Under the pieces are notes generated by a model. It was not told the DNA's origin and made no database searches. It saw only the letters and a list, made by a program, of their open reading frames with translations. From Streptomyces albidus (ex Kaewkla and Franco 2022) (lineage in GTDB: Bacteria > Actinomycetota > Actinomycetes > Streptomycetales > Streptomycetaceae), in NCBI RefSeq assembly GCF_013870515.1, contig NZ_JACBXA010000003.1, forward strand, positions 1-64,000: a stretch of DNA of 64,000 nucleotides, in the 5' to 3' direction. Positions 3,851 to 58,722 of the stretch are shown one piece after another (position 1 is the stretch's first letter; each line of letters begins with the position of its first letter). Position numbers and translations under genes: made by a program.

Positions 3851-5053
3851 TCACTGCCCGGGCCTGCTCCCCTCGTGCTTCCGTGCGCGCAGCGCGAGTG
3901 CGAGAAGGGCGGCGTCCTCGGGACGGCGGACGTCGCGGCCCGTGAGCTGGAAGAAGCGCGTGAAGCGCTGCTGCACGGTGTTCCGGTGGCAGTAGAGAGC
4001 ATCCGCGGTCTCCGCGATCGATCCGCTGCCCGCCAGATGCACCCGGACCGTGTGCAGCAGCCGACTGGTCTCGGCAGCGGGAGCACCGCTGTCGGTCAGC
4101 CCTCCGAGCACGTCCTGCGCCAGGTGCCCCGCGAAGGAGTCCGCGCGGTGCACGAGTACGTCGAGCCAGGCGTCCGCCAGGCGCAGCGGCCCCGTCGCCG
4201 CTTCCGGAAGCGCCCGTACGGTGGCGGTGGCGAGTTCGACCGCGCGGGGCACTTCGGCGAGACCCTCGGCGGCGGGTGACAGCCCGCACGGCACACCCTC
4301 CAGCCGGTCGAGCACCGCCCCCTCCGTGACGCGTCCCTCCAACTGCACGACCAGCAGCGAGGCGGACGAGACGGTGTGCCGCTGCAACGTTGTACCGACG
4401 GCACGCAGCGCGGTGGCCGCGCCGTGCAGTCCGCCTCCGGCGCCCGGCAGGGCGGCCACGCAGAGGAAGTCCGCGGTGGGCCGGAATCCGAGCGCCACTC
4501 CCACGTCGCGTACGACTGTCGGGTTGTGGCCTCCGGTCTCCAGCAGCCTGTCGAACCACAGCCGGCGTTCGTCCTCGCGCTGCCTGCCCATCTCCAGCAC
4601 GGTGCGCTGGTACGCGGTCATGATCCCGGTGACGTGCGCTTCGACGGCCTCCCACACCTGGTAGGCCGAGGCGACGAGCAGCACCTTGTCCTCGTCGTCG
4701 GCCCGTTCGACGAGTGCGGCCCACACGACCCGGAAGTCCAGGCGGGCCGCCGCCAGCAGCGAGTCGAGTGGTACGCCCTGGCGCGCTCGCCGTTCGCCGA
4801 TGCGTCCGGAGATCCCGGCGAGGCCCGCGGGCACGGGCAGCTCCGCGACGGTTCGGAGCAGCAGCTCGAAGGCCTGGAGGGCCGTCTCGCGGAAGTCGTC
4901 GTCGGGCACGGCGTCCGCGTACTGCGCGCGCAGCGGCCGTACGGTCTCCAGCCAGTCGACGAGCAGGCTGTCGATCTCCTGGAGGCACTCCACAGCGAGC
5001 TCGGCAGCGCGCGGTGACGGCGGGGGTGAGGCAGGCGGAGTGTGCATCTGCAC
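3851..5053 (-). CDS. PucR-type helix-turn-helix transcriptional regulator
   Basis: A 400-residue regulator with the PucR C-terminal HTH, including [10 protein letters not shown] near residue 355 and a C-terminal [11 protein letters not shown] helix. The middle region resembles the GGDEF-like CdaR segment of the PucR/CdaR family. GTG at 5053 is preferred over ATG at 5047 because a GGAGGG ribosome site lies 8 nt upstream of the GTG. It is divergent from the urease-containing operon, with only 115 bp between start codons, so it is the likely local regulator. The PucR family includes purine- and nitrogen-catabolism regulators; the inducer here cannot be read from sequence. Confidence 0.88.
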
Positions 5054-5054
5054 A
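5041..5054. promoter_or_regulatory. palindrome at the PucR start, possible autoregulatory site
   Basis: TGTGCA-TC-TGCACA is a perfect inverted repeat covering the start codon of the PucR-type gene. It may bind the regulator itself, or it may only be a consequence of the local codons (CAG ATG CAC). Binding is an inference. Confidence 0.3.
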
Positions 5055-5168
5055 ATGGTGGCCCTCCAGTCCGCGATACTTCAACGTTGGCCTCCTCCTC
5101 GACTGACGCCATGCTGGGTCGATTGCCCGCACCCGCCGTCCGGTCAGTCGATCCCGGAGGTCCCGACA

Positions 5169-5810
5169 GTGCATCTGACCCCTCGCGAGAACGAGCGGCT
5201 CCAGTTGTTCACCGCTGCCGAACTCGCCCGCCGCCGCCGCGGGCGCGGCCGCCGTCTCAACGCCCCCGAGGCCATCGCCCTCATCTGCGACGAGGTGCTG
5301 GAGGCCGCCTGGGACGGGCTGAGCATGGACGAGGTGATCGCCGTGGGGCGTTCGGTCCTCACCGAGGACGACGTCCTGGAGGGCGTGCCCGCGATGGTGC
5401 CGACCGTCCAGGTCGAGGCGCTCTTCCCCAGCGGCACCGCGCTCGTCGCCGTCGACGTTCCCATCGCGGCTTCCGGTACGGGAGACGCGCCGGGCGCCGT
5501 CCGTACGGCACCCGAGCCCGTGCGCATCAATGCGGGCCGGCGCAGGGCGCGGCTGACCGTGCGCAACACCGGCGACCAAGCCGTCTACGTGTCCTCGCAC
5601 TACCCGCTCACGGAAGCCAACTCGGCGCTGCACTTCGACCGCGGAACCGCCGAGGGCATGCGCCTCGACATCCCTGCCGGCACGGCCCTCGTCTTCGAAC
5701 CGGACGGTGAGCGCGAGGTGGAAGTGGTGGAAGCACGTCACGAGGGCGCCGGACTCAGGCGCGAGGAAGCGCACGTCGCACAGCCCGAGGAGAGGGAGGC
5801 CCGCCCGTGA
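5169..5810 (+). CDS. ureAB: urease subunit gamma/beta fusion
   Basis: A 213-residue fusion of urease gamma (residues about 1-100; [23 protein letters not shown]) and beta (about 105-200; [26 protein letters not shown]). It would form the non-catalytic scaffold of the urease trimer with UreC. GTG at 5169 is chosen because CGGAGG lies just upstream and the protein then begins at the usual gamma-subunit HLTPRE. The beta part reads [17 protein letters not shown], divergent from the usual SHFHFFEVN stretch. It overlaps ureC by 4 nt. Fused gamma/beta subunits occur in several actinomycetes. Confidence 0.9.
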
Positions 5811-7507
5811 ACGCGCCCGGCCACCGTGAAGTCGACCGCCGCACCTACAACGCCCTGTACGGGCCCACCACTGGTGACCGGATCCGGCTGGCAGACACCG
5901 ATCTGTGGGTCGAGGTGGAGAGCGACGACGGAACCCCCGGCGACGAACTCCTCGGCGGCTGCGGCAAGACCGTACGTGACGGGCTGCTGGCCTCACCCCG
6001 CTCGGACCGTGCCTCCGCGCTGGATCTCGTCATCACCAACGTGGTGCTGCTGGACGCGCAGGCCGGTGTGCGGAAGACGGACATCGGCGTCAAGGACGGC
6101 CGCGTCGTCGCGGTCGGAGGGGTCGGCAACCCGGACCTCACTCCCGTCGACTTCGCCGTCGACTCGCACACCTCCATGGTGCCGGGCGAAGGACTGCTGG
6201 CCACGCCGGGCATCGTCGACAGCCATGTGCACCTCTCCTCACCGGAGATCGCGCCCGCTGCGCTCGCTTCGGGAGTGACCACGGTCGTCGGTATGGGGCT
6301 CGGCGGCATGTGGGAGATCGGCTGCAACCCGGCGCACAACCTGCACACGTTGATGAGCGCCTGGCGTGGCACGCCGCTCAACGTGGCGTTCCTGGCCCGC
6401 GGTTCGTCCAGTTCGCGCAGGCTGCTGGACGAGATCGTGCTGGCCGGCGCCGGAGGCTTCAAGATCCATGAGGACTTCGGAGCGACTCCGCGCATCGTCG
6501 ACAACTGCCTGGACGCGGCTGAGCACGCGGACCTCCCGGTCGCGCTGCACACCGACTCGATGAACGAGTCGGGCTATCTGCGGGACACCGTCGGCGCCAC
6601 GCGCGGACGCACCGTGCACGCGTACCACGTCGAGGGCGGCGGCGGTCATCCCGACCTGCTGGAGATCCTCTCCGAGGCCAACATCCTTCCCTCGTCGACG
6701 ACTCCCACGATCCCCTACACGGTCAACACCGTCGACGAGCTCTTCCCGATGACGATGACCGTCCACCGGCAGAACCACCACATCGAGAGCGACGTGGAGG
6801 TCTCCAAGGGGCGCATCCGATCCCATGCCATCGCCGCCGAGAACTCGCTGCACGACCTCGGCGCGATCAGCATCGTCAACTCCGACTCGATGGGCATGGG
6901 CAGGATCGCCGAGACCGTCCGCCGCACCTGGCAGCTCGCCCACCTCCAGGCACTGCGCTGCGGCGAGGGCGGTGTCGAACACCCCGCCAACGCACGCGTG
7001 TTGCGCTACCTGGCCAAGCTCACGCTCAACCCGGCCGTCGCGCACGGCATTTCGCACGAGGTCGGCAGCGTCCGGCCGGGGCAGCTCGCCGACATCGTCC
7101 TGTGGCACCCGGCATGGTTCGGCACGAAGCCCGAACTGGTCGTCAAGAGCGGCTTCGTGGCCTGGGGCAACACCGGTTCCGGATCCGGATCGACCCGGCT
7201 GACCCAGCCCCGTCGCTACCGCCCGTACTACGGAGCACTCGGCGACGCCGCCTCACGGCTGGCCCGCGTCTTCGTCGGCAACGAGACGCTGGAGGACAAG
7301 ACCGCTCGCAACTCCCTTCCGTCCGGGCTGCGTTACGCGTCCGTACGGGACAGCCGGGGTCTCAGCCGCGCCGACATGCTGCACAACACCGCGACCCCGA
7401 CCGTCCATGTGCCGCGCGAGGCGGGCCCCGTCCTCGTCGACGGAACGCCCACCGCCACCGAAGCCGCCACACACGTACCGCTGGCTCAACTCCACCACCT
7501 GGCCTGA
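5807..7507 (+). CDS. ureC: urease alpha-subunit family protein (divergent)
   Basis: A 566-residue nickel amidohydrolase. Aligned by eye to the Klebsiella enzyme, the metal ligands are retained: HVH (about residues 139-141), the carbamylated-Lys motif FKIHED (K219, H221), LHTD, HAYHVEG, and the Asp of NSDSMGMGR. The mobile-flap Cys of MVCHHLD is replaced by Val (MTVHRQN, about residue 319), while the adjacent catalytic His is kept. GTG start, 4-nt overlap with ureAB. No ureE, F, G or D gene is nearby, so activation would need accessory proteins from another locus, or the enzyme may have drifted to another substrate. Family membership is firm; urea as the true substrate is less so. Confidence 0.9.
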
Positions 7508-7544
7508 GCACACCGACCGAGGGAAAGGACGAGGGTCCGAAGCC

Positions 7545-9209
7545 ATGCGACTCGATCTGATCGTGCGGGACGCGAACGTCCTCACCATGGACGACGACCG
7601 GCCGACGGCGCGCAGCCTCGGCGTCCTGCACGGACGCGTCGTCGGCCTGGACGAGGACATCGACGGCCTCCACGCCGACCGCGTCCTGCACGCCGACGGC
7701 GCCACGGTCGTACCCGGCTTCAACGACGCGCACTGCCACACCGCTTGGTACGGCCTCTCCCTCTCCCAGCTCGACCTCTCCGGGGCCCGCTCCCTGGAGG
7801 AGGTCTACGACGCCGTCGCCCGCCACTCCCGGACCCTCCCGGACGGAGCGTGGGTGGTCGGTGCGGGGCTGGACCATCACAAGGCCGGCGGCGTTCCGCC
7901 GCACCGTGACGCGCTGGACCGGGCGGCCGGCGGACGCCCGGTGTGGCTCAAACACACCTCGGGCCACGCCTGTTACGTCAACACCCCCGTGCTGGAGAGC
8001 GCCGGAGCGCTCGCCGACGGCTTCGAGCCGCCCGCGGGCGGAGTCCTGGTGCGGGACGCGGACGGGCGTCCCAACGGCCTGCTGGAGGAGACCGCACAGC
8101 AACTCGTGCAGCGGCAGGTGCTGCCGTACTCGGTGGAGACGATCGCGGACGCGGTGCAGGCCGCGACCCGCCGCTATCTCGCCGAGGGCATCACCAGCTT
8201 CACCGAGGCGGGCATCGGCGGCGGCTGGATAGGCCAGACGCCGGTCGAGTTCGCGGCGTACCAACTCGCCCTGGACACGGGACGGTTGAACGCCCGCGCC
8301 CAGTTGATGATCGCCTCCGACGCGCTGCATCCCCTGAGCGCGCACTCCAGCGACGGCATCACCACGGGCCTCGACCTCGGAATCCGCACGGGCCTCGGGG
8401 ACGACCGGCTGTCCGTCGGCCCGGTCAAGATCTTCCTCGACGGCTCGCTCCTGGGCCGTACGGCAGCCGTCACCGAACCCTTCTGCGGCTGCCACGACAG
8501 CAACTCACCGGGCACGGGCTACTTCCAGGAGGAACCCGACGCGATGGCCGGCCTCGTCGTGGCCGCACACCGCGCGGGATGGAGCATCGCCGCGCACGCC
8601 ATCGGCGACCGGGCGGTCGACCTCGCCCTCGACACGTACGAACGCGCACAGCGCGAACACCCCCGCACGGACGTGGTGCACCGCATCGAGCACGCCGGGA
8701 TGGTCCGCCCGGATCAGCTGGAACGCTTCGCCGCACTCGGCGTCGTACCCGTGCCGCAGCACAACTTCCTCGCGGCCTTCGGTGACGCGATGGCCGCGAA
8801 CCTCGGCCCGGACCGCACGAGTTGGACCTATCGCATGCGGTCCTTCCTCGACCTCGGCCTCACGGTGCCCGGCTCCTCCGACCGCCCGGTCGCTCCGGGC
8901 GCCCCTCTTCCGGCGATCGAGGCGATGGTGCGCCGGCTGACGGATTCCGGTGCACCCTTCTCGCCGGGTGAACGCGTCCCCGTCCAGGCCGCGTTGAAAG
9001 CCTGGACAGTCGGGTCGGCGCAGGCCACGGGTGCCGGCGCGGACAAGGGCCGCCTGAGACGCGGCATGCTCGCCGACTTCGCCGTGCTCGACGCCGACCC
9101 CTTGAGCGTCGACCAGGACCGCATCGGCTCCATCGGCGTCCTGGCGACGGCGGTCGGCGGCGACGCCGATACCGCTCACGACCCGCACGGCCTGATCGGC
9201 CTCCGATGA
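7545..9209 (+). CDS. YtcJ-like metal-dependent amidohydrolase (amidohydrolase family 3)
   Basis: A 554-residue cytoplasmic amidohydrolase. It shows the N-terminal metal motif FNDAHCHT, a central VKIFLDGSLLGRTA segment, AHAIGDRAVDLAL and HRIEHAGMV, and the C-terminal SSDRPV and KGRLRRGMLADFAVLD, all typical of YtcJ/exoenzyme-regulatory AepA-like hydrolases. ATG at 7545 follows an AAGGACGAGG ribosome site; an upstream in-frame extension inside ureC is rejected. It is third in the PucR-adjacent operon, 37 nt after ureC. The substrate is unknown; the context suggests hydrolysis of an N-containing compound whose product could feed the urease-like enzyme. Confidence 0.85.
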   Translation: MRLDLIVRDANVLTMDDDRPTARSLGVLHGRVVGLDEDIDGLHADRVLHADGATVVPGFNDAHCHTAWYGLSLSQLDLSGARSLEEVYDAVARHSRTLPDGAWVVGAGLDHHKAGGVPPHRDALDRAAGGRPVWLKHTSGHACYVNTPVLESAGALADGFEPPAGGVLVRDADGRPNGLLEETAQQLVQRQVLPYSVETIADAVQAATRRYLAEGITSFTEAGIGGGWIGQTPVEFAAYQLALDTGRLNARAQLMIASDALHPLSAHSSDGITTGLDLGIRTGLGDDRLSVGPVKIFLDGSLLGRTAAVTEPFCGCHDSNSPGTGYFQEEPDAMAGLVVAAHRAGWSIAAHAIGDRAVDLALDTYERAQREHPRTDVVHRIEHAGMVRPDQLERFAALGVVPVPQHNFLAAFGDAMAANLGPDRTSWTYRMRSFLDLGLTVPGSSDRPVAPGAPLPAIEAMVRRLTDSGAPFSPGERVPVQAALKAWTVGSAQATGAGADKGRLRRGMLADFAVLDADPLSVDQDRIGSIGVLATAVGGDADTAHDPHGLIGLR

Positions 9210-9378
9210 CCCCGCTCGACGCAGTGGCAGGCACTCCCCACCGCCTGCGGTGCGGTCCCCTCCGTACCGCAGGCGTTCCCTGCCGCGCGGCCCCACCGAT
9301 CGCAGCACCAGCGACAGCCGCTCCCCCGCCCTCCGCGCGCCTCGCACCAGCGGACGCCGTCCCCGAGGAGACACCCTG

Positions 9379-10779
9379 ATGAGCCAGGAATCACCACCGC
9401 CCACAGCCGGCGGAGAGTCACCGGCACACGAATCGCCGACGCCCCTCCCCCAGACCACGGTTCGCACCGCGGACATCAAGCGGCTGCTCTCCGCCGCCTT
9501 CGTCGGCACCGCCCTGGAGTGGTACGACTACTTCCTCTACGGCACGGCCGCCGCCCTGGTCTTCAACAAGCTCTTCTTCCCCGACCTGGACCCGGCCGTC
9601 GGCACCATCGCCTCCTTCATCACCTTCGCGGTGGGCTTCGTGGCCCGTCCCATCGGTGCCGCGATCTTCGGGCACATCGGTGACAGGCACGGGCGCCGGA
9701 CGGCGCTGATCATGACCGTCGTGCTGATGGGCGTCACCACCGGCTGCATCGGCCTGCTGCCCGGCTACGACAGCATCGGCGTCTGGGCGCCCGCGCTGCT
9801 TGCCACGCTGCGGTTCCTGCAGGGCATCTCGGTGGGCGGAGAGTGGAGCGGCGCCATGCTGCTGACGCTGGAGCACACCCCCCGGGAGAAGCACGGCAGT
9901 TACTCCGCCGTGCCCCAACTCGGCTCTCCCGTTGGCACGTTGCTCTCCAGCGGAGCGTTCGCCCTGGTCGGGATGCTGGACGACGACGCGTTCTACTCCT
10001 GGGGCTGGCGGATACCGTTCCTCTTCGCCTTCGTGCTTCTCGTCGTCGCCCTCTACATGCGTCTGCGCATCGAGGAGTCGCCCGTCTTCAAGGCGATGAT
10101 GGCCGAGAGCGAGAAGAACGGCCCGCCGCCCGCACCGCTCCTCGAGGCCTTCCGCCGCACCTGGGGCCGCATCCTCATCGGCATCGCCGCCGCCTTCCTC
10201 GGCATCGGCGGATTCTTCCTGCTGACCACCTTCATCATCTCCTACGGCACCGAACAACTCGGCGTGGACAAGTCGGTGATGCTCAACTCCACGCTCGTCG
10301 GATCCGTCGTCGAGATCGCCGTGCTCGTCGTCGCGGGACGCATCGCCAACAAGGCCGGGCCGTGGAAGGTCTGCGCGGTGGGCGGTGTCGTGTCGGTACT
10401 GGCCGCCTTCCCCGCCTTCTGGCTGGTGGACACGGGGCAGACAGGGCTGGTGATCCTCGGCGTCTCGCTCGGGATCGGCGCCATCTCCATTCCGTACGCG
10501 CCGATCGGCGCCGTCGTCTCCGGGATGTTCCCCGAGAACTTCCGCTACAGCGCCGTCGCCATGTCGTACAACCTGGCAGGCGTGCTGGCCGGCTTCGTGC
10601 CGCTCGTCGCCGCGTCGCTGCTCGGGCTCTCCGGCGGTGCCTCGTGGAGCGCGGCACTGCTGCTCGTCTTCATCGCGGCCTGCACGGCGGTCGGTTCCTA
10701 CCTCGCGGGTCCGCAACTGCAACGCCGGCTGGGACATGACCCGAGCAAGCAGCACGAGACCTCGAAGGCCATCGCATGA
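9379..10779 (+). CDS. MFS transporter, metabolite:H+ symporter (MHS) subfamily
   Basis: A 466-residue membrane protein of about 12 helices. It shows MHS-family signatures: GTALEWYDYFLYGTAAALV in helix 1, GHIGDRHGRRTAL in the 2-3 loop, FLQGISVGGEWSGA, and WRIPFLFAFVLL followed by RLRIEESPVF. ATG at 9379 is preceded by GAGGAG 8 nt upstream. It overlaps the ThDP gene by 4 nt. MHS members import organic acids, betaines or shikimate-like acids with protons; here it probably imports the substrate of the operon. Substrate not determinable. Confidence 0.9.
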   Translation: MSQESPPPTAGGESPAHESPTPLPQTTVRTADIKRLLSAAFVGTALEWYDYFLYGTAAALVFNKLFFPDLDPAVGTIASFITFAVGFVARPIGAAIFGHIGDRHGRRTALIMTVVLMGVTTGCIGLLPGYDSIGVWAPALLATLRFLQGISVGGEWSGAMLLTLEHTPREKHGSYSAVPQLGSPVGTLLSSGAFALVGMLDDDAFYSWGWRIPFLFAFVLLVVALYMRLRIEESPVFKAMMAESEKNGPPPAPLLEAFRRTWGRILIGIAAAFLGIGGFFLLTTFIISYGTEQLGVDKSVMLNSTLVGSVVEIAVLVVAGRIANKAGPWKVCAVGGVVSVLAAFPAFWLVDTGQTGLVILGVSLGIGAISIPYAPIGAVVSGMFPENFRYSAVAMSYNLAGVLAGFVPLVAASLLGLSGGASWSAALLLVFIAACTAVGSYLAGPQLQRRLGHDPSKQHETSKAIA

Positions 10780-12467
10780 CGCCGCAGACCCCTGCCCGCA
10801 CCGGCGGACGGATACTCGTCGACCAACTCGCCGCCCACGGCGTGGAGACCGTCTTCGGCGTACCGGGTGAGAGCTACCTCGACGCGCTGGACGCCCTCTA
10901 CGACGCCCCCGTGCGGATGGTCGTGTGCCGCCACGAAGGCGGCGCCGGGTACATGGCGGAGGCGTCCGGCAAGCTCACGGGCCGACCCGGCGTCTGCTTC
11001 ACCACCCGCGGTCCCGGCGCGACCAATGCGCTGGTGGCCCTGCACACCGCTCAGCAGGACGCCACACCGCTCGTCCTGTTCGTCGGCCTGGTGCCGCGAG
11101 GTCACCAGGATCGTGCGGCCTTCCAGGAGTTCGATCTGCGGGGCACCTTCGGGACGACGGCGAAGCTGGTCGAGACGATCGAAGACGCCGCCCGGATCCC
11201 GGAATTCGTGGCCCGCGCCTTCGCCGTCGCCGCGAGCGGGCGCCCCGGACCCGTGGTTCTGGGGCTGCCCGAGGACATGCTCACGGACACGGTCTCCGTC
11301 GCGGACGCGTCCCCCCTGCCGGTGCCCGAGGGCGCGGTCTCCGCTGCCCAACTCACGGAGCTGGAAGAGCTGTTGGGCGAGGCAAAACGTCCGCTGGTGC
11401 TCCTCGGCGGAAGCCGCTGGACGGAGACGGCGCGAGCGGACGTACGGTCCTGGGCCGAAGCCTGGTCCCTGCCCGTGGCCGTCGACTTCCGCTGCCAGGA
11501 CCTGATCGCCGAGGAGTGCGAGGTGTTCGCCGGCAACCTGGGCTACGGGCGCTCCGAGAAGCTGGCCCAACGCCTGGGCACGGCCGACCTGTTGATCTGC
11601 GTCGGCGCGGCACCGGGGGACGTGGCGACGGACGGATACACGCTGCTCGACTCAACGGGAGAGGAGACCCGACGCCTCGTCCACGTGCTGCCGGAGTCAC
11701 AGGCACCGGGATCGCAACAGTCGGCCGACCTCGCCCTGCTGGCCTCACCCGAGGCCTTCGGCGCGGCGGTCGCGCAGCTGAAGCCGGACGGGCCGGTGCC
11801 CTGGACGGAGGTCGCACAGGCCGACCGCGCCGCTCATCTGGACTTCCGCCGCACGCTGAACGACGACGAATCACTCGACCTGGGTTCTGTGTTCGCGGAA
11901 CTGGACGCCCGTCTGGAGCCTGACGCCGTCATCACCTTCGGCGCGGGGAACTACGCCCTGTGGGCACAGCGCTTCATCGGCTACCGCGACGGCATGCGCC
12001 AACTGGCGCCCCGCAGCGGCTCGATGGGCTACAGCGTGCCGGCGGGCGTCGCGGCGAGCGTCATCTCGCCCGGACGCCAGGTGGTCACCTTGGCGGGCGA
12101 CGGCTGCTTCCTGATGAACGGGCAGGAGCTGGCCACGGCGACCGCCGAAGGCGGGGCTCCGCTGATCCTCGTCGTCGACAACGGCACGTACGGCACGATC
12201 CGCAAGCACCAGGAGATGCACTACCCGGGCCGCGTCAGCGGGACCGACCTGGCCAACCCGGACTTCGCCGCGTACGCACGCGCCTTTGGCGCGCACGGCG
12301 AAACGGTCACGGAGACCGGGGAGTTCGGCCCGGCACTGGAACGCAGCCTGGCCAACTGCCGATCGGGCCGCCCGGCCCTGATCGCGCTCCGCCCGGCGGA
12401 GGGGCGGCTGGCGCCGGGAGTGACGGTGGAGGGGTTGCGGGGGCGGGCACATCGCTCGTCGAGTTGA
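10776..12467 (+). CDS. thiamine-diphosphate-binding enzyme, acetolactate synthase-like
   Basis: A 563-residue ThDP enzyme. It has an N-terminal PYR domain with the catalytic Glu in CRHEGGAGYMAE (E54), RGPGATNAL, a central TPP_enzyme_M domain, and a C-terminal PP domain with the Mg/ThDP motif beginning GDGCFLMNGQELATA and ending near VVDNGTYGTIR. Such proteins act on 2-oxo acids (decarboxylation or carboligation). It is not the biosynthetic IlvB: no IlvN neighbour and a catabolic operon context. Translationally coupled to the transporter by ATGA. The exact reaction is unknown. Confidence 0.85.
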   Translation: MTPQTPARTGGRILVDQLAAHGVETVFGVPGESYLDALDALYDAPVRMVVCRHEGGAGYMAEASGKLTGRPGVCFTTRGPGATNALVALHTAQQDATPLVLFVGLVPRGHQDRAAFQEFDLRGTFGTTAKLVETIEDAARIPEFVARAFAVAASGRPGPVVLGLPEDMLTDTVSVADASPLPVPEGAVSAAQLTELEELLGEAKRPLVLLGGSRWTETARADVRSWAEAWSLPVAVDFRCQDLIAEECEVFAGNLGYGRSEKLAQRLGTADLLICVGAAPGDVATDGYTLLDSTGEETRRLVHVLPESQAPGSQQSADLALLASPEAFGAAVAQLKPDGPVPWTEVAQADRAAHLDFRRTLNDDESLDLGSVFAELDARLEPDAVITFGAGNYALWAQRFIGYRDGMRQLAPRSGSMGYSVPAGVAASVISPGRQVVTLAGDGCFLMNGQELATATAEGGAPLILVVDNGTYGTIRKHQEMHYPGRVSGTDLANPDFAAYARAFGAHGETVTETGEFGPALERSLANCRSGRPALIALRPAEGRLAPGVTVEGLRGRAHRSSS

Positions 12468-13353: not shown

Positions 13354-14016
13354 CTAGAGTCGTGTAACCAACTCCTCGTCAGTCACGCGCCCGCACGTCC
13401 AAGACCAAATCAGTCGACGTTGCGCCCTGTCAGGAGAAAAGACTCTCTTACAGGCAAGGAAGAGGAGATCAGGCCTGCGCGCGACCCACCACTCCTCGTG
13501 TCGCACCTGGATGCAGATGCTTGACATCGCAGAACCGCTCTCGAGCAACCGAAGCATCGCGGCAACATCATTGTCGTACTGAGATCGTACGGGGATCTCA
13601 ACGCCGTAAGCCCTCTTGAAATCCTCACAAAAGTGGTGAGCGCCATACTGTGGAGCATTGCGCAACCACCACTCCCCTTCTGGGAAGTCTGTGAAAACTT
13701 CTCTGCTGAGTACGGTCATCAACTCTGAGTCAATTCTCTTGATGTCCTGCAGGAGCGCGCCTGCACACTTGGGATGAGCGGGCGTCAGCTCTGTCAAAAC
13801 CCGCTGCAGAGTGCTCCTCAGAGTTAGGTCATTTGCATATTCCTCCACTTCCCACGGATAGCCCGCCAAGCAGTCGTCCGTAAAATAGCGCCAGCGTTGC
13901 ATTGCTTCTTCGGGGGCAATCCCAGAACGCCAACCTGCCTTTGACGCCGCAGCATCGAAGGCCCCCTCGAATGAAGCACGTGAGTCACCTGACACTTTCG
14001 TTCTCCATGTACTCAC
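13354..14016 (-). CDS. putative immunity protein of the adjacent RHS toxin
   Basis: A 220-residue soluble protein of unrecognised family, rich in Trp and Cys (EGEWWLRNAPQYGAHHF, HEEWWVARRPDLLFL). GTG start at 14016, overlapping the last 32 nt of the RHS toxin gene in another frame. Base composition is clearly lower in GC than the chromosome average and matches the toxin tip, consistent with a toxin/immunity cassette acquired as a unit. The function is inferred from position; residues alone do not show it. An alternative is an unrelated hypothetical protein. Confidence 0.6.
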   Translation of the reverse strand: MSTWRTKVSGDSRASFEGAFDAAASKAGWRSGIAPEEAMQRWRYFTDDCLAGYPWEVEEYANDLTLRSTLQRVLTELTPAHPKCAGALLQDIKRIDSELMTVLSREVFTDFPEGEWWLRNAPQYGAHHFCEDFKRAYGVEIPVRSQYDNDVAAMLRLLESGSAMSSICIQVRHEEWWVARRPDLLFLACKRVFSPDRAQRRLIWSWTCGRVTDEELVTRL

Positions 14017-17000
14017 GTGGGTTGTCGGGACGGAAGAAATTCACGATCTTCCCATCGCGCTGGATGGCCAATCGGCCTTCAGGATCAAGACGCAGAACAG
14101 CACCGTCGCTCGCGCGGACCACCTCCCGCACATTTTCACCAGGGGGGCCGTTCATGAGATCCTCCGCATCTTTCATGTACCTGTCGAACCCGTCGACCCC
14201 ATCAACCGTCTGAGCATACTCGGGCATATCCGGGGCCTCGCCAGGCCGCTTGCCGATTCCCTCAACATGCTTGTCGTACTTCTCGTCGACAGCAGACATG
14301 TCCCATTTACAAGGAGTCAACCCGTACGGATCAGTCCATGTTTTCGGGTTGTGAACGTATGCGGAGGGGTTGGGCGTAGGCGCGAGGCCCAATGGATCCT
14401 GGGTGGCGTATCGAGCCGTAGTGGGATCGTAGTGACGGTGGAGGTTGTAGTGAAGCTCAGTCTCCGGATCGTAGTACTGACCAGGAAATCGAAGCGGCGT
14501 ATAAGCCGTAGCATTGATGTTCCAAGTAGTCGTCCCCCACAACGTCGCTCGGCCGTGCCAAGCGATTTCTCCACATTCATCGACGAGTTCGGTCGGCGTG
14601 CCGATCAGATCAGTGACGATCGCGAAAAATCGAGAATCGATCTCACCCTGAGTTTCAGTATCGGTGATGCGTTCAGTCTGCGTCAGGGGGCGCAAACCAT
14701 CGTGATTCCAAGTGAGGGTCACTGGATCCGGCAGGTCTGAGCTGGTCGTGGTCTGCTCGATGAGCGTGGGCCCGTCCCAGGTGAAGTCGACCTGCTCGAC
14801 GACAGTTGCGCGATCACCGTCGAGGCGCTGTTTGGCGATGCGGCGACCCAGGGGGTCGTACAAATAGCGCCATACGCAGCCGTCCGGTGTGGTTACCGAA
14901 GTGAGGTGATCCTCGGAGTCCCATGTATAACGCCACGTATCCGGTTTCCTGGACAGCCGATTCTTCTGACGGAGGATGACACGGCCAGCGGCATCGTGTT
15001 CGTAGCGGACAGCCCCCGCAGAGAGCAGCTGAGTTCCTCCGTACGTGCGCTCACCCCGAGTGTCCGCCCTGGCCTTCTCTGCTGGCCAGTGTGCGCGAGT
15101 TTGATTGCCTGACTCGTCGTATGCGTACGACTCGTCCCAATCGTTCGCCAGCACAGTTGTGACACGCCCAACTGGATCCAGGTCGTACTCCTGAGATCCA
15201 TTCAAGTGGTCGTCAACGGCGAGCAGATGACCGTCAGGCCTGTACGTGTAGGTCCGCTGCTGCACGCGGGTCGCCGAAGGGCTTCTGACGGTTTGCGCAG
15301 TCAAGCGGCCGGCGGGGTCCCAGGTGTACTCGAGGTCGACAGCGCCGTCGACGCGCCGGTGGATCTCGCGACCCACCGCGTCACGAGTGAATTCGAGGGT
15401 ATGGCCCGAGGCCATAAGCGTGGCCCGGTTGCCGGCGTCGTCATAGGTGAAACTTGAAGCAGCGCCAGAAGGAGTCACCCGGCGCGTGCGGTTGCCTACG
15501 GCGTCGTACGTGTACGTCAGAACTCGCCCGTTCAGCAGTTCCGTTTTCACGCGCCCAAGCTTGTCCCTTTGGACCAGCAGCTCGGCGTCCGGCCCAATAG
15601 CGTGAATTAGATTGCCTGCAGCGTCGTAGTCATAGGTTGTCCGCTGGCCGTCTGCACTTTTGGAGACGATCTGCCCGAGCGAATCTCGCTCAAAGGTAAC
15701 GGTCATTCCGGCAGGATTGGTGCGAGAGATCAGCCGACCTACAGCGTCGTGCCCATACCTGAGCCTGCGGCCGTCGAAGTCGGTCTCTGACACGATGCGC
15801 CCCGCGGAGTCATACTCATAACTCCAAGTCATCTGCTGCGGGTTGGTGACCTTGGTGAGGCGAAGTGCCTGGTCATAGCTGAACTCGTGATGAACACCGT
15901 TCGGACCCGTGCGCGCGACCAGACGGTCGAAGTCTCCAAACTGGTAGGCGGTGATGCCGCCATTCGCATCGACAAAAGAGGTGCAGTTTCCTTCTCCGTC
16001 GAAAGTCCAGGATTCCGCCGCTCCGTCCGGGCCTGTACGGCGCGACAGCTTGCCTTCGATCGTCCACTGCAGTCGGGTCTCCGCTCCCAGCGAGTCGGTG
16101 ATCACTATTGGACGGCCGAATGCATCGCGTTCGTACGTAGTGACCGCCCCAAGGGGATCTTGGATCTCGACGGGCAGGCCTGCGGAATTACAACGGACGC
16201 GAGTGGTCGCTCCCAGAGCATTCACGTAGGACGTCAGAAAGCCGTGTGAATCATAGGTGTATCGAGTGACGTGACCCGCCGGGTCGGTCACTCTGGTACG
16301 GTTGCCCCGCTCGTCATATTCCTGCCTCCAAATACCCCCGTCGGTGTTGATAATTTCGACGGGCAAGCCGAATTCGTTGTTCACGGCACTGATCCGCATG
16401 CCGTCGGGGCGAATTACGGAGGTCAGTTGATCGCTTGCTTCGCCGTACTGGTAGTGGGTAGTACTTCCTGCAGCGTCAGTGCGGGATAGCAGACGATGGC
16501 AGCGATCACGCTCCATGAACACCGTATTGCCCAACGCATCAATTTCAGCTACCACTTGCAGTCGTTCATTGATCACGTTTCGCCGAGTACCTCGCTCGGG
16601 ATCCGTTACTGTCGTTACCCGATGACCAGTTCGCTCGTCGAGTCCGTTGTAGTCGAACGTGAACTGCATGCAGCCGTTTTCGCCGGACTGCGCAATGCAC
16701 CGGTCCTCTTCGTCATATTCGTAGCTGAACCGGCGATCATTGGTGTCCGTCCACGATTTGATGCGCCCTCGCCCGTCGTAGTCGAACTGCAACGGCACAC
16801 CAGATGAGTTCGTTACCGAAGTGAGGTTTCCGTCCGCGTAGCCGAAGCGGACCAGCGTCTGATCGCCTCCGTCGGGAGCGGCTTCGGCCAGGCACAGAGC
16901 GGTGACGCGGCCGTTGTCTGCAGTGACCTTCAGGTGATAGCCACCCTCGTGGACAATGCTGGTCGGCGTACCGCAGCTGTCGTACTCAAACGAAATGCGG

Positions 17001-18616
17001 TTTCCGTTGCGATCAACCACTGCATCGAGCAGAGCGGTCCCGGATCCACCTGGATTCGCGCCCTGCGGTCCAACGATTTGCCAAGCCCTGCCTGTGCCTT
17101 CATCCGTCAGGACGTAGTCTCCCTCGACGGTCCGGTCAAGGGGCCAGCGCGCACCCGTTTCCGGCAGTGTCGGTACATCCGGTGCGGGGTGGGGGTAGGC
17201 GAGCAACAAGTTGTCCTCGCCGTGGAACACCACACCCTCTGCATCGATCTCGAGACGCTGATCGATTGTGCTGGACCAACTGGGGCCGAACCAGCGGCCG
17301 GCGCGGTAGGAGGATTCGAACCCGCGCTTGAAGACCAGTGGCAGCGCTCCCGGCAGCGACACATCCGTCTGAGGAAGGAGCACCCGCCCTGTCGCCACGT
17401 CCACCGGATCGCCGTCGCATGGCCTTCGCCCCGGGCCTCTACCAGCGTTATCCGGGTTGTTGTCGACGTCCCCTCGCCCCGGCGTCTTGGGCGGCTTCTC
17501 GTCCGGGAGATGCTTCGCGACGGTGGCGATCTTCTTGATGCTGCCCAGCCCCCGCGTCCCGAGCAGCTCCGGGATGAGGCGCCCGGTGCCCTCGGCCGGG
17601 TCCTTCATGAAGCCGTCGTACATCGTCTTGGCCGCGCCCAGCGGGTCGTTGGCCATCCGCACCAGACCCGCTGTGGTGCTGTTCAGGCTCGTCATGAACT
17701 CGGCGGGGTGGGTGATGTTGTACGGGTCGGTCGGGTTCACGCTCCGCGCGAAGCTGACGATGCCCGCCGTGCCCTTGACGATGCCGCCGTAGAAGTGGGA
17801 CGCGCTCAGGTTCAGCCCCTCCAGGCCGTCCAGAGCCTGCTCACCGTACGAAGGCTTCTCCGGCGCAGCGTCCCGCGCACCGGCGACCGCCGAACGAGCG
17901 GGCCCCGCCGCGTCGTTGCGCTGACGACGCGCCTCCGCCAGCTTCTCCTGCGCCGCCTTGATGTCCGCCGCTCCAGGATCCGCACCGGGCTTGTCCGGAA
18001 GGGACTTCGGGTCACGCTCGTCCGCCGGCTTGGCGTTGTAGGAGTCGACGGCCTTGTTGTACGAGTCGACCTTCCCCTCGTGCGCCTCGGATGCCTTCTT
18101 GCCCTTGTTGTAGAGGGTGATGGCTTCCTGGGCCTGCTTCTGCGCCCAGTCCACCGTCCCGGCGAAGTCCTTCAGCGCCTTGGCCGCCTTCTCGCACGCG
18201 TCCGCCGCCTTGAACCACTTCTTCGGCTCGATCGCGACCTTCTCGCGGAACGCGTCGGCCGCCTCGCCCTTCAAGTGCGAGGAGTCCAGGCCCTTCAGGC
18301 CGTTGCCGACGTTCGTGAACGCCGTCTTGAAATCGGTGAGATGGCTCGCCGTGGAACGCAGCTTCTCCGGACTGCCGTGGACGAGCTTCGTCTCGTCCTC
18401 GGTCTCCCCCAACTGCATCTCGTCGACAGCGGCACCGAGAGCGTTGGCGGCGGAGTCGCCCTTCTCGCGCACCCAGTCCGCACCGGAGTGCCAGCCGACG
18501 TCGTCCAGCCGGTCCGCACCCCAGTCCGAGGCGGCGTCGATCCCCTCGCCGACGTCCTCGACCCTGTCCTCGGCCCAGTCCTCGACCGAATCCGGAACCA
18601 GATCACCGAGTCCCAT
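13985..18616 (-). CDS. RHS/YD-repeat polymorphic toxin with WXG-like N-terminus
   Basis: A 1,543-residue modular toxin. Residues about 70-190 are helical and WXG/LXG-like (EAADAFREK, KWFKAADACEKAAKALKDF), suggesting type VII-linked export. A linker ends in GRRPCDGDPVDVATGRV near residue 400, which opens a DUF6531-type region (FKRGFESSYRAGRWFGPSW). YD repeats (YDAAGNL, YDERGNRTRV and similar) fill about 560-1,330. The RHS core (LHYNLHRHYDPTTARYATQ, DPLGL, WTDPYGL) ends near 1,434. The last 108 residues form a variable tip with a conserved-looking end (RLDPEGRLAIQRDGKIVNFF), which may be a BECR-fold RNase; that is a guess from pattern. It overlaps the upstream gene by 1 nt and the putative immunity gene by 32 nt. 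Confidence 0.92.
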   Translation of the reverse strand: MGLGDLVPDSVEDWAEDRVEDVGEGIDAASDWGADRLDDVGWHSGADWVREKGDSAANALGAAVDEMQLGETEDETKLVHGSPEKLRSTASHLTDFKTAFTNVGNGLKGLDSSHLKGEAADAFREKVAIEPKKWFKAADACEKAAKALKDFAGTVDWAQKQAQEAITLYNKGKKASEAHEGKVDSYNKAVDSYNAKPADERDPKSLPDKPGADPGAADIKAAQEKLAEARRQRNDAAGPARSAVAGARDAAPEKPSYGEQALDGLEGLNLSASHFYGGIVKGTAGIVSFARSVNPTDPYNITHPAEFMTSLNSTTAGLVRMANDPLGAAKTMYDGFMKDPAEGTGRLIPELLGTRGLGSIKKIATVAKHLPDEKPPKTPGRGDVDNNPDNAGRGPGRRPCDGDPVDVATGRVLLPQTDVSLPGALPLVFKRGFESSYRAGRWFGPSWSSTIDQRLEIDAEGVVFHGEDNLLLAYPHPAPDVPTLPETGARWPLDRTVEGDYVLTDEGTGRAWQIVGPQGANPGGSGTALLDAVVDRNGNRISFEYDSCGTPTSIVHEGGYHLKVTADNGRVTALCLAEAAPDGGDQTLVRFGYADGNLTSVTNSSGVPLQFDYDGRGRIKSWTDTNDRRFSYEYDEEDRCIAQSGENGCMQFTFDYNGLDERTGHRVTTVTDPERGTRRNVINERLQVVAEIDALGNTVFMERDRCHRLLSRTDAAGSTTHYQYGEASDQLTSVIRPDGMRISAVNNEFGLPVEIINTDGGIWRQEYDERGNRTRVTDPAGHVTRYTYDSHGFLTSYVNALGATTRVRCNSAGLPVEIQDPLGAVTTYERDAFGRPIVITDSLGAETRLQWTIEGKLSRRTGPDGAAESWTFDGEGNCTSFVDANGGITAYQFGDFDRLVARTGPNGVHHEFSYDQALRLTKVTNPQQMTWSYEYDSAGRIVSETDFDGRRLRYGHDAVGRLISRTNPAGMTVTFERDSLGQIVSKSADGQRTTYDYDAAGNLIHAIGPDAELLVQRDKLGRVKTELLNGRVLTYTYDAVGNRTRRVTPSGAASSFTYDDAGNRATLMASGHTLEFTRDAVGREIHRRVDGAVDLEYTWDPAGRLTAQTVRSPSATRVQQRTYTYRPDGHLLAVDDHLNGSQEYDLDPVGRVTTVLANDWDESYAYDESGNQTRAHWPAEKARADTRGERTYGGTQLLSAGAVRYEHDAAGRVILRQKNRLSRKPDTWRYTWDSEDHLTSVTTPDGCVWRYLYDPLGRRIAKQRLDGDRATVVEQVDFTWDGPTLIEQTTTSSDLPDPVTLTWNHDGLRPLTQTERITDTETQGEIDSRFFAIVTDLIGTPTELVDECGEIAWHGRATLWGTTTWNINATAYTPLRFPGQYYDPETELHYNLHRHYDPTTARYATQDPLGLAPTPNPSAYVHNPKTWTDPYGLTPCKWDMSAVDEKYDKHVEGIGKRPGEAPDMPEYAQTVDGVDGFDRYMKDAEDLMNGPPGENVREVVRASDGAVLRLDPEGRLAIQRDGKIVNFFRPDNPREYMENESVR

Positions 18617-19266
18617 CAGCCCTCATCCCCCGATCCCGACTGCTGCTGTTGTGCACGTTCTTCCGCCGACGGACCGAACGCGTCGTCGCGCGCCTGCTCC
18701 CGTGCCTCTTCCGGGATGCCGTACGCGTCCATCACCACGTCGTTCTGCAGACCGCCGATACCGTCCTCGGTCAAGGAACGGCCGGTGTCCTTCCACGTCT
18801 GCCCGATCTCCTGCTGGGCCTGCTGAAAGGACTCCGGGCTGTAGTCCGGATCCAGAAAGCCCGGAGTGAAGGTCTCGCCCCAGCTCTGCTTGGCGACCTC
18901 CTCCTCCGTGGCGTGAGGATTGCCGATCAAGGAGTTCACCCCGACCTTGAAGGCCCCCTCCCAGTACTTGTCCTCCTCGTGGACCATCCCCGCCGCCAGA
19001 CCAAGCTTCGCCGCAAGAGCGTTGGCGTCCTGGACCAGCGCCCGAACCCCCCACTCCCAGCGCTCGCAGAAGCTCTCGAAGTCGTCGGCCAGACCGGCGT
19101 CACCGGCCTCCATCTTCGACATCGACATCTCACCGAACCCGCTGCCCTGCAACGAACCCGTCGCCCCGCCCCCGGCCGACTTCAGCTCACCGATCGCAGA
19201 GTTCAGCCCCTTGGTGATCAGGGCGAGTGATTCCTTGTCGAACTTCAGTTCCTCGCCGCCGCTCAC
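18616..19266 (-). CDS. WXG100-like helical partner of the RHS toxin
   Basis: A 216-residue mostly helical acidic protein. It begins with a KFDKESLALITKGLNSAIGE helix and contains FESFCERWEWGVRALVQDA, reminiscent of WXG100/ESX-type proteins that accompany secreted toxins. Gln/Ser-rich C-terminal tail, no signal peptide. The stop codon overlaps the ATG of the RHS gene (TGATG), indicating translational coupling. It probably helps to present or export the toxin; this role is inferred from position and helical pattern. Confidence 0.7.
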   Translation of the reverse strand: MSGGEELKFDKESLALITKGLNSAIGELKSAGGGATGSLQGSGFGEMSMSKMEAGDAGLADDFESFCERWEWGVRALVQDANALAAKLGLAAGMVHEEDKYWEGAFKVGVNSLIGNPHATEEEVAKQSWGETFTPGFLDPDYSPESFQQAQQEIGQTWKDTGRSLTEDGIGGLQNDVVMDAYGIPEEAREQARDDAFGPSAEERAQQQQSGSGDEG

Positions 19267-46378: not shown

Positions 46379-47031
46379 TCCGGGTGGCCCTCCCCCAGTA
46401 ACGCTTCGACGACCTGCTTGGTGGTAGGCGTGGCCGCGCAGGCGTGAGCGGCGTACGAGACGGCGAGGCGGTGGTCGTCGGCGTTGAAGTCGGCGACGGC
46501 GTCGGTGACCAGGAAGGGCTGGATGTCGTGGCTGAAGGCGTCGACCGTGGTGATGAGGCAGCCGAGGTGGGCGTAGACGCCGCAGACGATGAGCTGGTCG
46601 CGGCCTGCGGCCCGCAGCCGCTCGAGCAGCGGGGTGCGCTGGAAGGCGCTGTAGCGCCACTTGGTCAGCACCTGGTCCGCCTCGTCCGGCGTCAGCTCGT
46701 CGACTATGCGCCGGTCCTCCGGCGCCGCCGCCATGCCGGCTCCCCAGAACGCGCCGAGCAGCCCGCGCTGATCCTCCGTCATGTCGCCGGGCTGCGCGGT
46801 GTAGAAGACCGGTACGCCGAGTGAGGCGCAGGTCTCGCGCAGCTGCACCGCGTTGGGCAGCACCACGGTGAGCGGCGGGGTGTCCTGGCGGAAGGGGCGC
46901 AGGAAGTAGCTCTGCATGTCGTGGATGAGCAGGGCGGCCCTGCGCGGGTCGGGCCGCCATCCGGTCCGGTCCTGGTCGGCGTCCTCCTCCGCGGGCAGGT
47001 CGTACGGGGCGATGGGGGCAATGCCGGTCAT
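46375..47031 (-). CDS. isochorismatase, PhzD-like
   Basis: A 218-residue cysteine-hydrolase-fold enzyme of the PhzD branch: LLIHDMQSYFLRPF (catalytic Asp), LTKWRYSAFQRTPL (Lys) and VYAHLGCLITTVDAFSHDIQ, followed by FLVTDAVADFN. It would hydrolyse ADIC to 2,3-dihydro-3-hydroxyanthranilate (DHHA) and pyruvate. ATGA overlaps join it to both neighbours. ATG at 47031 is used; an upstream GTG/ATG extension is not conserved. TTA codon at 46399-46401, near the C-terminus. Confidence 0.92.
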   Translation of the reverse strand: MTGIAPIAPYDLPAEEDADQDRTGWRPDPRRAALLIHDMQSYFLRPFRQDTPPLTVVLPNAVQLRETCASLGVPVFYTAQPGDMTEDQRGLLGAFWGAGMAAAPEDRRIVDELTPDEADQVLTKWRYSAFQRTPLLERLRAAGRDQLIVCGVYAHLGCLITTVDAFSHDIQPFLVTDAVADFNADDHRLAVSYAAHACAATPTTKQVVEALLGEGHPE

Positions 47032-48272
47032 CGGCCGTCCTCCAAGTCCTGGGCCGTGCCTGCCTTTCCCCACGCGTCCACGGCGGCCACCGCCTGGGCG
47101 CGGTCGAGCCGCGGGTCACACAACGTGGTACGGGCGGTCGGCCCGGTGGGCGGTACCTGCGAGGCTCGCCACAGGCACTCGGTGACGGGTTCGTCGGTTG
47201 CTTCCAGGTGCAGGCCGCCTGCCACTCCGCCCGCGGCGCGCACGGCGGCTCGGAACTCCCGTATCTCCGCCAGGACCGTGGTGAGGACGCGGGTCTTCAG
47301 CCCGTCGGGCCCGGTGGTCGTGTTGCCGTGCAGCGGGTCGCACAGCCACAGCACCGGGTGCCCCGCCTCGCGTACGGTCGCCACGAGCGCGGGCAGCCGT
47401 TGCGCCGCCTGCCCTGAGCCCATGCGGACGATCAACGTGAGCCGGCCCGGCCTGCGGTGGGGGTCGAGACGCGCGCACAGCCGCAGCAGCGCGGCCGCCG
47501 TCATGGTCGGCCCGACCTTGCACGCCACGGGGTTGGCCACCTCGGCGAGCAGCCGCACATGGGCGCCGTCCGGGTCCCGGGTCCGCTCGCCCACCCACGG
47601 CCAGTGCGTGGAGGTCAGCAGCAGGCGGCCGTCCTCCGTCGTCCTCAGCAGGGGGACCTCGTAGTCGAGCACCAGCGCTTCGTGGCTCGTCCAGACCCGC
47701 TCGTGCGGCGTGCCGCCCTCGGTGCACCCGCGCAGGAAGTCCGCCGTGGCCCGGGCCGCCGCGTAGCAGGTGAGCATCCGGCCGGGGTCGGCTCTGCGGG
47801 AGATCGGATCGGGGTCGGGGGCGTTGACCATGAGTCCGCGGAAGGCGGGCAGTGCGACCCCGTGCTTCGTCTCGGTGGCCTGCGAGCGCGGCTTGGCGAA
47901 CTGGCCGCCGATGCGTCCGGCCATGAGTGCTTCCAGGCCCGTCGCGGCGGTCATCGCGGACGCGAGGTTCCGGAGCAACTCGACTTTCCCGGCGAGCCGT
48001 TCGGACACGCAGTGTGCGGGGTCCTCCGCGCAGTCCCCTGCCTGGATGACGCTGCGGGTGCCGGTGGCCGCCCCGGCGAGCAGCGAGCCGAGTGCGTCGA
48101 CCTCGGCCTCGTCCACGAGGCCCGGAAGTGTGGTCAGGGTCTTCACGGCGGGATCCGCCGTCTCGTGCCACCGGGGCTGCTGGTGTGCCGGAAGTCTTCG
48201 CCAGCGCTGGATCTCGTCATCGGGTAAGGGCCTGAGGCCCGTGCCCGGACCGGCGAGCGCCTGTCCATTCAC
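47028..48272 (-). CDS. class II (plant-type) DAHP synthase, PhzC-like
   Basis: A 414-residue 3-deoxy-7-phosphoheptulonate synthase: VIQAGDCAED, GRIGGQFAKPRS, WTSHEALVLDYE, VANPVACKVGPTM, LWLCDPLHGNT and GGLHLEATDEPVTECLW. A second, pathway-dedicated copy raises shikimate/chorismate supply, as in phenazine and related clusters. GTG start at 48272, facing the ATP-grasp gene across a 214-bp divergent region. First gene of the leftward operon. TTA codon at 48225-48227, near the N-terminus. Confidence 0.92.
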   Translation of the reverse strand: MNGQALAGPGTGLRPLPDDEIQRWRRLPAHQQPRWHETADPAVKTLTTLPGLVDEAEVDALGSLLAGAATGTRSVIQAGDCAEDPAHCVSERLAGKVELLRNLASAMTAATGLEALMAGRIGGQFAKPRSQATETKHGVALPAFRGLMVNAPDPDPISRRADPGRMLTCYAAARATADFLRGCTEGGTPHERVWTSHEALVLDYEVPLLRTTEDGRLLLTSTHWPWVGERTRDPDGAHVRLLAEVANPVACKVGPTMTAAALLRLCARLDPHRRPGRLTLIVRMGSGQAAQRLPALVATVREAGHPVLWLCDPLHGNTTTGPDGLKTRVLTTVLAEIREFRAAVRAAGGVAGGLHLEATDEPVTECLWRASQVPPTGPTARTTLCDPRLDRAQAVAAVDAWGKAGTAQDLEDGR

Positions 48273-48339
48273 TCATGGTCTCCTCAATCGACCCGGTGGA
48301 AACTCCGGGAGCTTATGGAGAAGAGATTCCGGAACGCAA

Positions 48340-48355
48340 CTACTCACTTGAGTAG
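48340..48355. promoter_or_regulatory. palindromic operator copy 1 of the divergent cluster promoter
   Basis: CTACTC-ACTT-GAGTAG, a perfect 6-bp inverted repeat with 4-nt spacer, about 70 nt upstream of the DAHP synthase start. Confidence 0.7.
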
Positions 48356-48384
48356 CCGGGCGTGGGGGAGAGATTCCACCGGAC

Positions 48385-48400
48385 CTACTCGGTCGAGTAG
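48385..48400. promoter_or_regulatory. palindromic operator copy 2 of the divergent cluster promoter
   Basis: CTACTC-GGTC-GAGTAG has arms identical to copy 1, 45 bp away and 87 nt upstream of the ATP-grasp start. Identical arms with different spacers argue for a protein-binding site rather than chance. No cluster-encoded regulator is intact, so the binding protein is presumably encoded elsewhere. Confidence 0.7.
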
Positions 48401-48486
48401 TTGCCGTAATTCTGGGGTCCATGGATGCTGTCCAGCGGTGTCGGTCACCCACCAGGCTGGAACCTTATCCGGAGGCGGACTCGGAA

Positions 48487-50559: not shown

Positions 50560-50614
50560 GCGACGGATGACGACCGACAACGCGCCCCAGTGCGAGAGAG
50601 AGGCCCGAACACCC

Positions 50615-55348: not shown

Positions 55349-55364
55349 GCCGTTCCACAGCCCT

Positions 55365-55374
55365 CCCCCCCCCC
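55365..55374. repeat. C10 homopolymer in intergenic spacer
   Basis: Ten consecutive C residues lie between the roadblock gene stop and the ribosome site of the binding-protein gene. Such tracts can slip; here a length change would alter spacing in the mRNA but no protein. Confidence 0.8.
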
Positions 55375-55411
55375 TTTGCCCCACCCGTATATCAATCCAA
55401 CGGAGACCTGA

Positions 55412-56614: not shown

Positions 56615-56615
56615 C

Positions 56616-58649: not shown

Positions 58650-58722
58650 CACGCAACCACCCTCGACCCCGCTGCGCGCTTTCCACGGCGAGCCGCCCCG
58701 GCGCGCGCCTCATGGTGATTCC

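Follow-up and report, generated by a model that had tools for sequence, protein, structure and literature searches.

The 64,000-nucleotide stretch of the Streptomyces albidus (ex Kaewkla and Franco 2022) genome analysed here (contig NZ_JACBXA010000003.1, positions 1 to 64,000, hereafter the window) carries an operon built on a fused urease gamma/beta protein (UreAB) and a UreC-like amidohydrolase, followed by genes for a YtcJ-type amidohydrolase, an MHS-family symporter and a thiamine diphosphate (ThDP)-dependent enzyme, with a PucR-type regulator gene beside it. Its UreC, with an intact metal site and shortened substrate loops, belongs to a clade separate from the classical ureases, and the genomes that contain only UreC of this clade lack the nickel-chaperone genes for UreG, UreF and UreD. 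We propose, with a probability of about 0.4, that the operon degrades an imported nitrogen compound by means of an accessory-independent UreABC, most likely a ureido (N-carbamoyl) hydrolase. The window-type enzyme is probably not an ordinary urease.

An intact metal site in a remodelled pocket

Residues of the window UreC were read from an alignment with Klebsiella aerogenes urease (1ejw_C), numbered by hand. All the metal ligands (H134, H136, K217, H246, H272 and D360) and the catalytic H219, D221, H320 and R336 are present, and the flap Cys C319 is replaced by Val. This bears out an earlier note, made from the sequence of this DNA, which had described kept nickel ligands and carbamylated Lys together with a Val in place of the flap Cys. 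Further changes are W222 to Phe, Q362 to Met and A363 to Gly, while the loop holding A167 is four residues shorter and the Gly-rich loop after H272 two residues shorter. The four urease domain families (PF00547, PF00699, PF00449 and PF01979) are all above cut-off in UreAB and UreC, and the only Pfam families matched by UreC were urease/amidohydrolase ones, with no nitrilase (CN_hydrolase) fold among them. At a finer level UreC scores 582 bits against the urease-alpha equivalog TIGR01792, below its cut-off of 680, and 692.8 bits against the looser subfamily NF009686, above its cut-off of 354. The beta part is as divergent as the same note had said: it reaches 87.8 bits with TIGR00192, just under the cut-off of 90.3, the canonical SHYH reads SHYP and the usual C-terminal tail is missing. 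A structure of UreC predicted by AlphaFold from 19 aligned rows was of poor quality (mean predicted local distance difference test, pLDDT, 53.9) and was set aside.

The flap change is shared by a UreC clade

Flap and active-site residues were read in 97 UreC sequences, the partial gene L081 being left out of the alignments and the tree. The metal ligands, H219, D221, H320 and R336 are kept in all 97. At the flap position Val was found in 40/40 sequences of the window type, in 29 of the 30 of another UreC type that many genomes of the genus carry, the second type (the other one has Ala), and in both sequences of a third lineage, the f15 family, which has Val in 7/7 of a wider set. The Blastococcus-type UreC has Ala (3/3), and on the remaining canonical side (n=22) there are 21 Cys and one Val. 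The short substrate loop and A363G are common to the clade, including the second type with flap Val. We built an unrooted maximum-likelihood tree with 61 of the 97 sequences, leaving out 36 near-duplicates, in which a branch with support 98/93 sets the window type, the second type and f15 apart from the canonical and Blastococcus-type UreC. The earlier note had suggested a phylogeny of this UreC against classical ureases, and the outcome is a separate clade with remodelled substrate-site loops.

Since Val is shared by the window, second and f15 types, the flap change is a feature of the clade and not an oddity of the window gene. In classical K. aerogenes urease the flap Cys is not essential, and C319 mutants keep partial activity. 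As a special mark flap Val did not hold up: besides being general in the window type and nearly so in the second type, it occurs within the canonical clade with UreG near, and Ala is found elsewhere, so that we rejected it as diagnostic. The canonical-clade sequence with Val is L092 (G556:C431), with UreG about 1.3 kb away on the same contig. The Blastococcus-type loci (L076-L078) combine flap Ala and a shortened loop with an adjacent UreG-like gene, and UreG was present in the one genome of this type that was searched (G573). L092 and the Blastococcus type both speak against taking flap Val by itself as a sign that accessory genes have been lost. Flap Ala was also seen in three further UreC genes of the second type (L127-L129), which have at least two distinct agmatine-deiminase-like paralogues at their flanks, in surroundings unlike those of the other second-type loci. 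The novelty is the accessory-free clade and not the single cysteine.

Genomes with only this clade lack nickel chaperones

No ureD, ureF or ureG was found at the window locus (within 8 kb; no model search was made for UreE). In the same genome, contig C57 carries a canonical ureABC with ureF, ureG and ureD after it, and contig C61 has a match to Urease_alpha (8.9e-5). The second, canonical locus that had been suggested as a check is therefore there, and the statement that ureD/E/F/G are missing stands at the locus for ureD, ureF and ureG and falls for the genome as a whole. An organism without accessory genes was rejected for the same reason.

The wider comparison covered 41 genomes examined for the window type, taking as canonical any UreC with at least 54% identity to the C57 copy and as UreG any match above the curated cut-off. 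UreG was present in 29 of the 30 that also have a canonical UreC (in the one exception, G179, the contig ends at the canonical ureC) and in none of the 11 without one, of which G185 has only a partial UreC gene and gave no match in the search (Fisher 4e-9, relatedness ignored). Weak UreG matches below the cut-off in some genomes are presumably HypB. For the genus as sampled, 129 of 150 genomes have UreG. Among the 39 with a single UreC it was found in 31 of the 33 whose UreC is of neither the second nor the window type, these being called canonical by exclusion from the listed matches, with flap residues mostly not read. It was found in 0/3 with the second type only (G094, G112 and G148) and in 0/3 with the window type only (G043, G069 and G145). 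G148 was taken by exclusion as one of the UreG-negative genomes and, separately, lacks UreF and UreD. UreG was likewise absent from all seven f15 genomes. UreF and UreD were found in none of 20 clade-only genomes and in all four controls; some of the 20 are metagenome-assembled genomes (MAGs), but G069, assembled in two contigs, has a completeness rating of 100%. In the ten genomes that have a complete window-type UreC and no canonical one, UreG, UreF and UreD are all absent. Canonical loci (n=22), on the other hand, have UreF in 22, UreG in 21 and UreD in 21 cases within 8 kb.

The accessory independence of the clade is well supported by these gene counts. Provided that its enzymes work, which the retained active site suggests, they would obtain their metal without UreD, UreF and UreG. 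Alternatively, the accessory proteins encoded at the canonical locus could act in trans and mature the window-type enzyme as a nickel urease, recruited to finish a ureide or guanidine pathway; the UreF, UreG and UreD genes on C57 and the 29 of 41 window-type genomes with UreG would allow this. We consider this unlikely in view of the ten genomes just mentioned, of the f15 and second-type-only genomes, which lack these genes likewise, and of the missing UreB tail.

Gene content and distribution of the operon

The window genes were checked by translation and by Pfam and NCBIfam scans (Table 1), which confirmed the YtcJ-like amidohydrolase, the MHS importer, the ThDP enzyme and the PucR gene claimed before. 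Four-base overlaps at two junctions, UreAB/UreC and MHS/ThDP, are operon-like. A PDB search with the YtcJ protein gave as closest solved structures only the uncharacterized hydrolases 3icj and 3igh. For the ThDP gene, a biosynthetic acetohydroxyacid (acetolactate) synthase was rejected, with 278 bits against the 538 needed for TIGR00118. The PucR-type protein showed no domain other than the C-terminal HTH_30 in the Pfam scan. An inverted repeat, TGTGCA-NN-TGCACA, lies at the start of its gene (window 5040-5175) and is partly kept in ten aligned intergenic regions; it is only a candidate operator because it overlaps the conserved first codons of the pucR-type gene.

Table 1 Genes of the operon and the adjoining regulator, with positions in the window
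Gene product	Position	Strand	Evidence and remarks
PucR-type (HTH_30) regulator	3851..5053	-	Divergent from the operon; PF13556 5.7e-19
UreA-UreB fusion (urease gamma/beta)	5169..5810	+	GTG start; PF00547 2.4e-36, PF00699 3.5e-28; beta part divergent
UreC-like amidohydrolase	5807..7507	+	PF00449 4.7e-37, PF01979 3.4e-46; flap Val, shortened substrate loops
YtcJ-type amidohydrolase (Amidohydro_3)	7545..9209	+	PF07969 5.6e-93
MHS-family metabolite/H+ symporter	9379..10779	+	TIGR00883 373 bits, under cut-off of 443
ThDP-dependent enzyme, PRK08199 subfamily, acetolactate-synthase-like fold	10776..12467	+	NF006052 713 bits, above cut-off of 539

In a sample of 150 genomes of the same genus, that of the window included, four others have a UreC close to the window's (84, 68, 67 and 67% identity), and among the matches listed every other UreC is at most 49% identical to that of the window. 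In 396 genomes drawn from the phylum, the window type appeared only in the window's own genome, the next best match having 50%. Scanning GTDB species with a sequence pattern returned 40 loci, of which 35 are of the window type, four belong to other UreC kinds (L075-L078) and one is the partial L081. Adding the window and the four same-genus genomes to the scan, we counted 40 window-type loci (the window, L038-L074, L079 and L080); genomes with G numbers and named records may overlap in the samples. The hosts are Streptomyces or the same genus (25), Microbispora (3), Sphaerisporangium (1), Streptosporangium (2), Nonomuraea (4) and Mobilicoccus (1), and the remaining four are MAGs of Micrococcales, Acidimicrobiales and Acidimicrobiaceae.

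Presence of neighbours was scored by tblastn with fixed score thresholds within 8 kb of UreC, earlier passes with a gene caller having been crude and having missed genes. Absences say little at loci cut by contig ends (L046, L048, L069, L071, L133 and others). By this measure the 40 loci have UreAB in 40, MHS in 35, a PucR-type gene in 35, YtcJ in 32, ThDP in 19 and an aldehyde dehydrogenase in 11 cases, and UreG, UreF, UreD or a deiminase in none. The typical order in Streptomyces is UreAB-UreC-YtcJ-MHS-ThDP, with the aldehyde dehydrogenase after ThDP in ten loci and not in the window. In Streptosporangiaceae it is UreAB-UreC-MHS-YtcJ (9/10 loci), and the ThDP gene is found in 0/10. YtcJ is missing in the Streptomyces loci L038, L044, L047 and L058, and both YtcJ and MHS in L064, L065, L069 and L070. 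Both dehydrogenases that were scanned, at 638 and 652 bits, are above the 615 bits set by NCBI for the aminobutyraldehyde-dehydrogenase subfamily. At L065 a dehydrogenase of aminobutyraldehyde type lies beside UrtA- and UrtB-like genes, both below their equivalog cut-offs.

The window-type genes are a genuine operon, conserved between genomes, around a non-classical UreABC, and the uptake-and-degradation set with a PucR gene that the earlier note had outlined is borne out, with the PucR-type gene divergent. That UreC is a decaying duplicate without enzymatic function can hardly be credited: nothing of weight favours it, the frames are open, the ligands are kept in 40/40 and the gene order is preserved across genera. 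A pseudogene was likewise rejected.

A substrate among the purine-derived ureides, allantoate or ureidoglycolate for example, would agree with the PucR-type gene and with the uric acid breakdown genes found upstream of the operon in L060, L061, L062, L063 and L066. These code for uricase, HIUase and OHCU decarboxylase, and also for 8-oxoguanine deaminase in L060; uricase lies within 8 kb of UreC in 4/40 loci. They were seen only at Nonomuraea and Streptosporangium loci, separated from the operon, and their nearness may reflect no more than synteny. HTH_30 proteins control many pathways, and a purine ureide as substrate seems to us quite improbable.

Neighbours in the sister lineages

The genes beside the two sister lineages are different. 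An agmatine-deiminase-like gene lies within 8 kb of UreC in all 17 second-type loci, in none of the 22 canonical ones and in one of the seven f15 loci (L115, where it adjoins ureAB). By the same tblastn measure, an NCS1 permease is present in 8/17 second-type loci. The scanned deiminases belong to PF04371 (PAD_porph). Three of the seven f15 loci have PotA-, PotD- and PotB-like transporter genes directly after ureC, of which only PotA is above the curated cut-off, and a distant YtcJ (31%) is present at two of the other f15 loci.

Proposed function

We suggest that the MHS symporter imports a nitrogen compound which the other enzymes of the operon would then degrade. YtcJ may prepare a ureido substrate by deacylation or ring opening. 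UreAB-UreC would acquire its pair of metal ions independently of UreD, UreF and UreG, and the metal may be zinc, iron or manganese and not nickel. Its substrate would be larger than urea, and hydrolysis of the ureido (N-carbamoyl) group at the end of this molecule would release an amine, CO2 and NH3; shorter loops together with A363G might leave space for the R of R-NH-CO-NH2. The ThDP enzyme, together with the aminobutyraldehyde-type dehydrogenase in some relatives, would process the carbon skeleton from a 2-oxo acid to an aldehyde and on to an acid, and the PucR-type protein presumably controls the operon. Ureido hydrolysis is proposed because deiminases make ureido from guanidino groups, and the step that would follow, of AguB type, is urease chemistry on R-NH-CO-NH2. 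AguB is an enzyme of the nitrilase fold. A passage on the AguA and AguB pair describes conversion of the guanidino to the ureido compound and then to amine, CO2 and NH3 (PMC9397018). The likeness to AguA/AguB is in this proposed reaction, with AguA-like genes beside the sister lineages; the fold differs, the window UreC belonging to urease/amidohydrolase families, and with AguB only the proposed function is alike.

More hesitantly, the idea may be extended to a whole deep Actinomycetota branch of UreC, including the second "urease" of many Streptomyces, which would be a self-assembling non-nickel ureido hydrolase partnering guanidino deiminases or amidohydrolases.

Several observations weigh against an accessory-independent ureido hydrolase. 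At the threshold used, the ThDP gene is missing in 21/40 loci and YtcJ in 8, some of them at contig ends. The UreF, UreG and UreD of C57 could act in trans in this genome, and the Blastococcus UreC has a short loop and yet a UreG-like gene next door. The scanned deiminases fall short of the equivalog cut-offs for AguA, the 17 second-type loci all come from one genus, as do the three Pot loci, and with no deiminase at any of the 40 window-type loci the ureido substrate is carried over from the sister lineages.

A urease proper that needs no chaperones, works with iron or another metal as Helicobacter UreA2B2 does and takes its urea from neighbouring enzymes would likewise keep every catalytic residue and be found in clade-only genomes without UreG, UreF and UreD. 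The UrtA- and UrtB-like genes near L065 point the same way, as does the existence of an iron urease in Helicobacter, which is mentioned in a passage of PMC11541087. Against it, the urea-pocket loops are shortened and A363 is changed in the clade, and at most loci the neighbours are no known urea producers, deiminases yielding ureido compounds and not urea. It remains a good rival, on the unlikely side in our judgement.

Relation to known systems

The window type shares with the classical UreABC of K. aerogenes and S. pasteurii the subunit domains, the metal ligands, the position of the carbamylated Lys and the flap His. It differs in having no flap Cys, shorter loops and another operon, and its clade in the absence of UreDFG. 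The maturation of Helicobacter mustelae UreA2B2 needs no nickel chaperones, and its urea hydrolysis is oxygen-labile. This enzyme is similarly a urease homologue, with an iron cofactor according to PMC11541087; it comes from another phylum, and the comparison was by the PDB match 3qga alone.

The second Streptomyces type shares with the window type flap Val, the short loop, A363G and the grouping in the tree. Its UreC is 48-50% identical to the window type, and beside it lie a deiminase and, in many cases, an NCS1 permease instead of YtcJ, MHS and ThDP. By gene order, we take this second type to be SCO5526. The S. coelicolor pair SCO5525-SCO5526 resembles the window locus in having a fused UreAB and a UreC with no accessory genes: an excerpt of a 2008 Brucella paper (PMC2492869) states that S. 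coelicolor and S. avermitilis carry urease clusters of only ure(AB)C, SCO5526 being separate from SCO1234. In a passage of a 2012 paper (PMC3293853) SCO5525-5526 are placed among urea-utilizing genes. The orphan ureases treated in the excerpt of PMC2667541 are those of two marine animals only. In the open-licence literature we found no account of the accessory independence of the clade, of the deiminase linkage or of the window-type operon, and nothing about function emerged from searches on urease-like enzymes, on PRK08199/YtcJ and on urease together with agmatine deiminase.

Other features of the window

Three further regions of the window were noticed by eye. On the minus strand, 13985-19266 codes for a 1543-amino-acid RHS/YD-type repeat protein, with a 216-amino-acid gene before it, the whole resembling a locus of polymorphic-toxin type. 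At 47028-51856, a gene resembling class II DAHP synthase precedes SDR-like and ATP-grasp-like genes, possibly as part of a secondary-metabolite cluster. In 52362-59580, sensor-kinase-like and roadblock-like genes come before a branched-chain-amino-acid-type ABC transporter.

Implications

Bacterial urease is a textbook example of an enzyme dependent on dedicated nickel chaperones, and ureC serves as a marker in surveys of urea use. The second UreC type is present in 87 of the 150 same-genus genomes. If the clade is chaperone-free and acts on ureido compounds, many Streptomyces "urease" annotations would be wrong and ureC surveys would over-count urea users. It would also offer a chaperone-free urease fold for the study of metal choice and substrate scope. 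Dependence on nickel chaperones would in that case characterize just one side of the urease family, and the accessory-free side could preserve a pre-nickel state.

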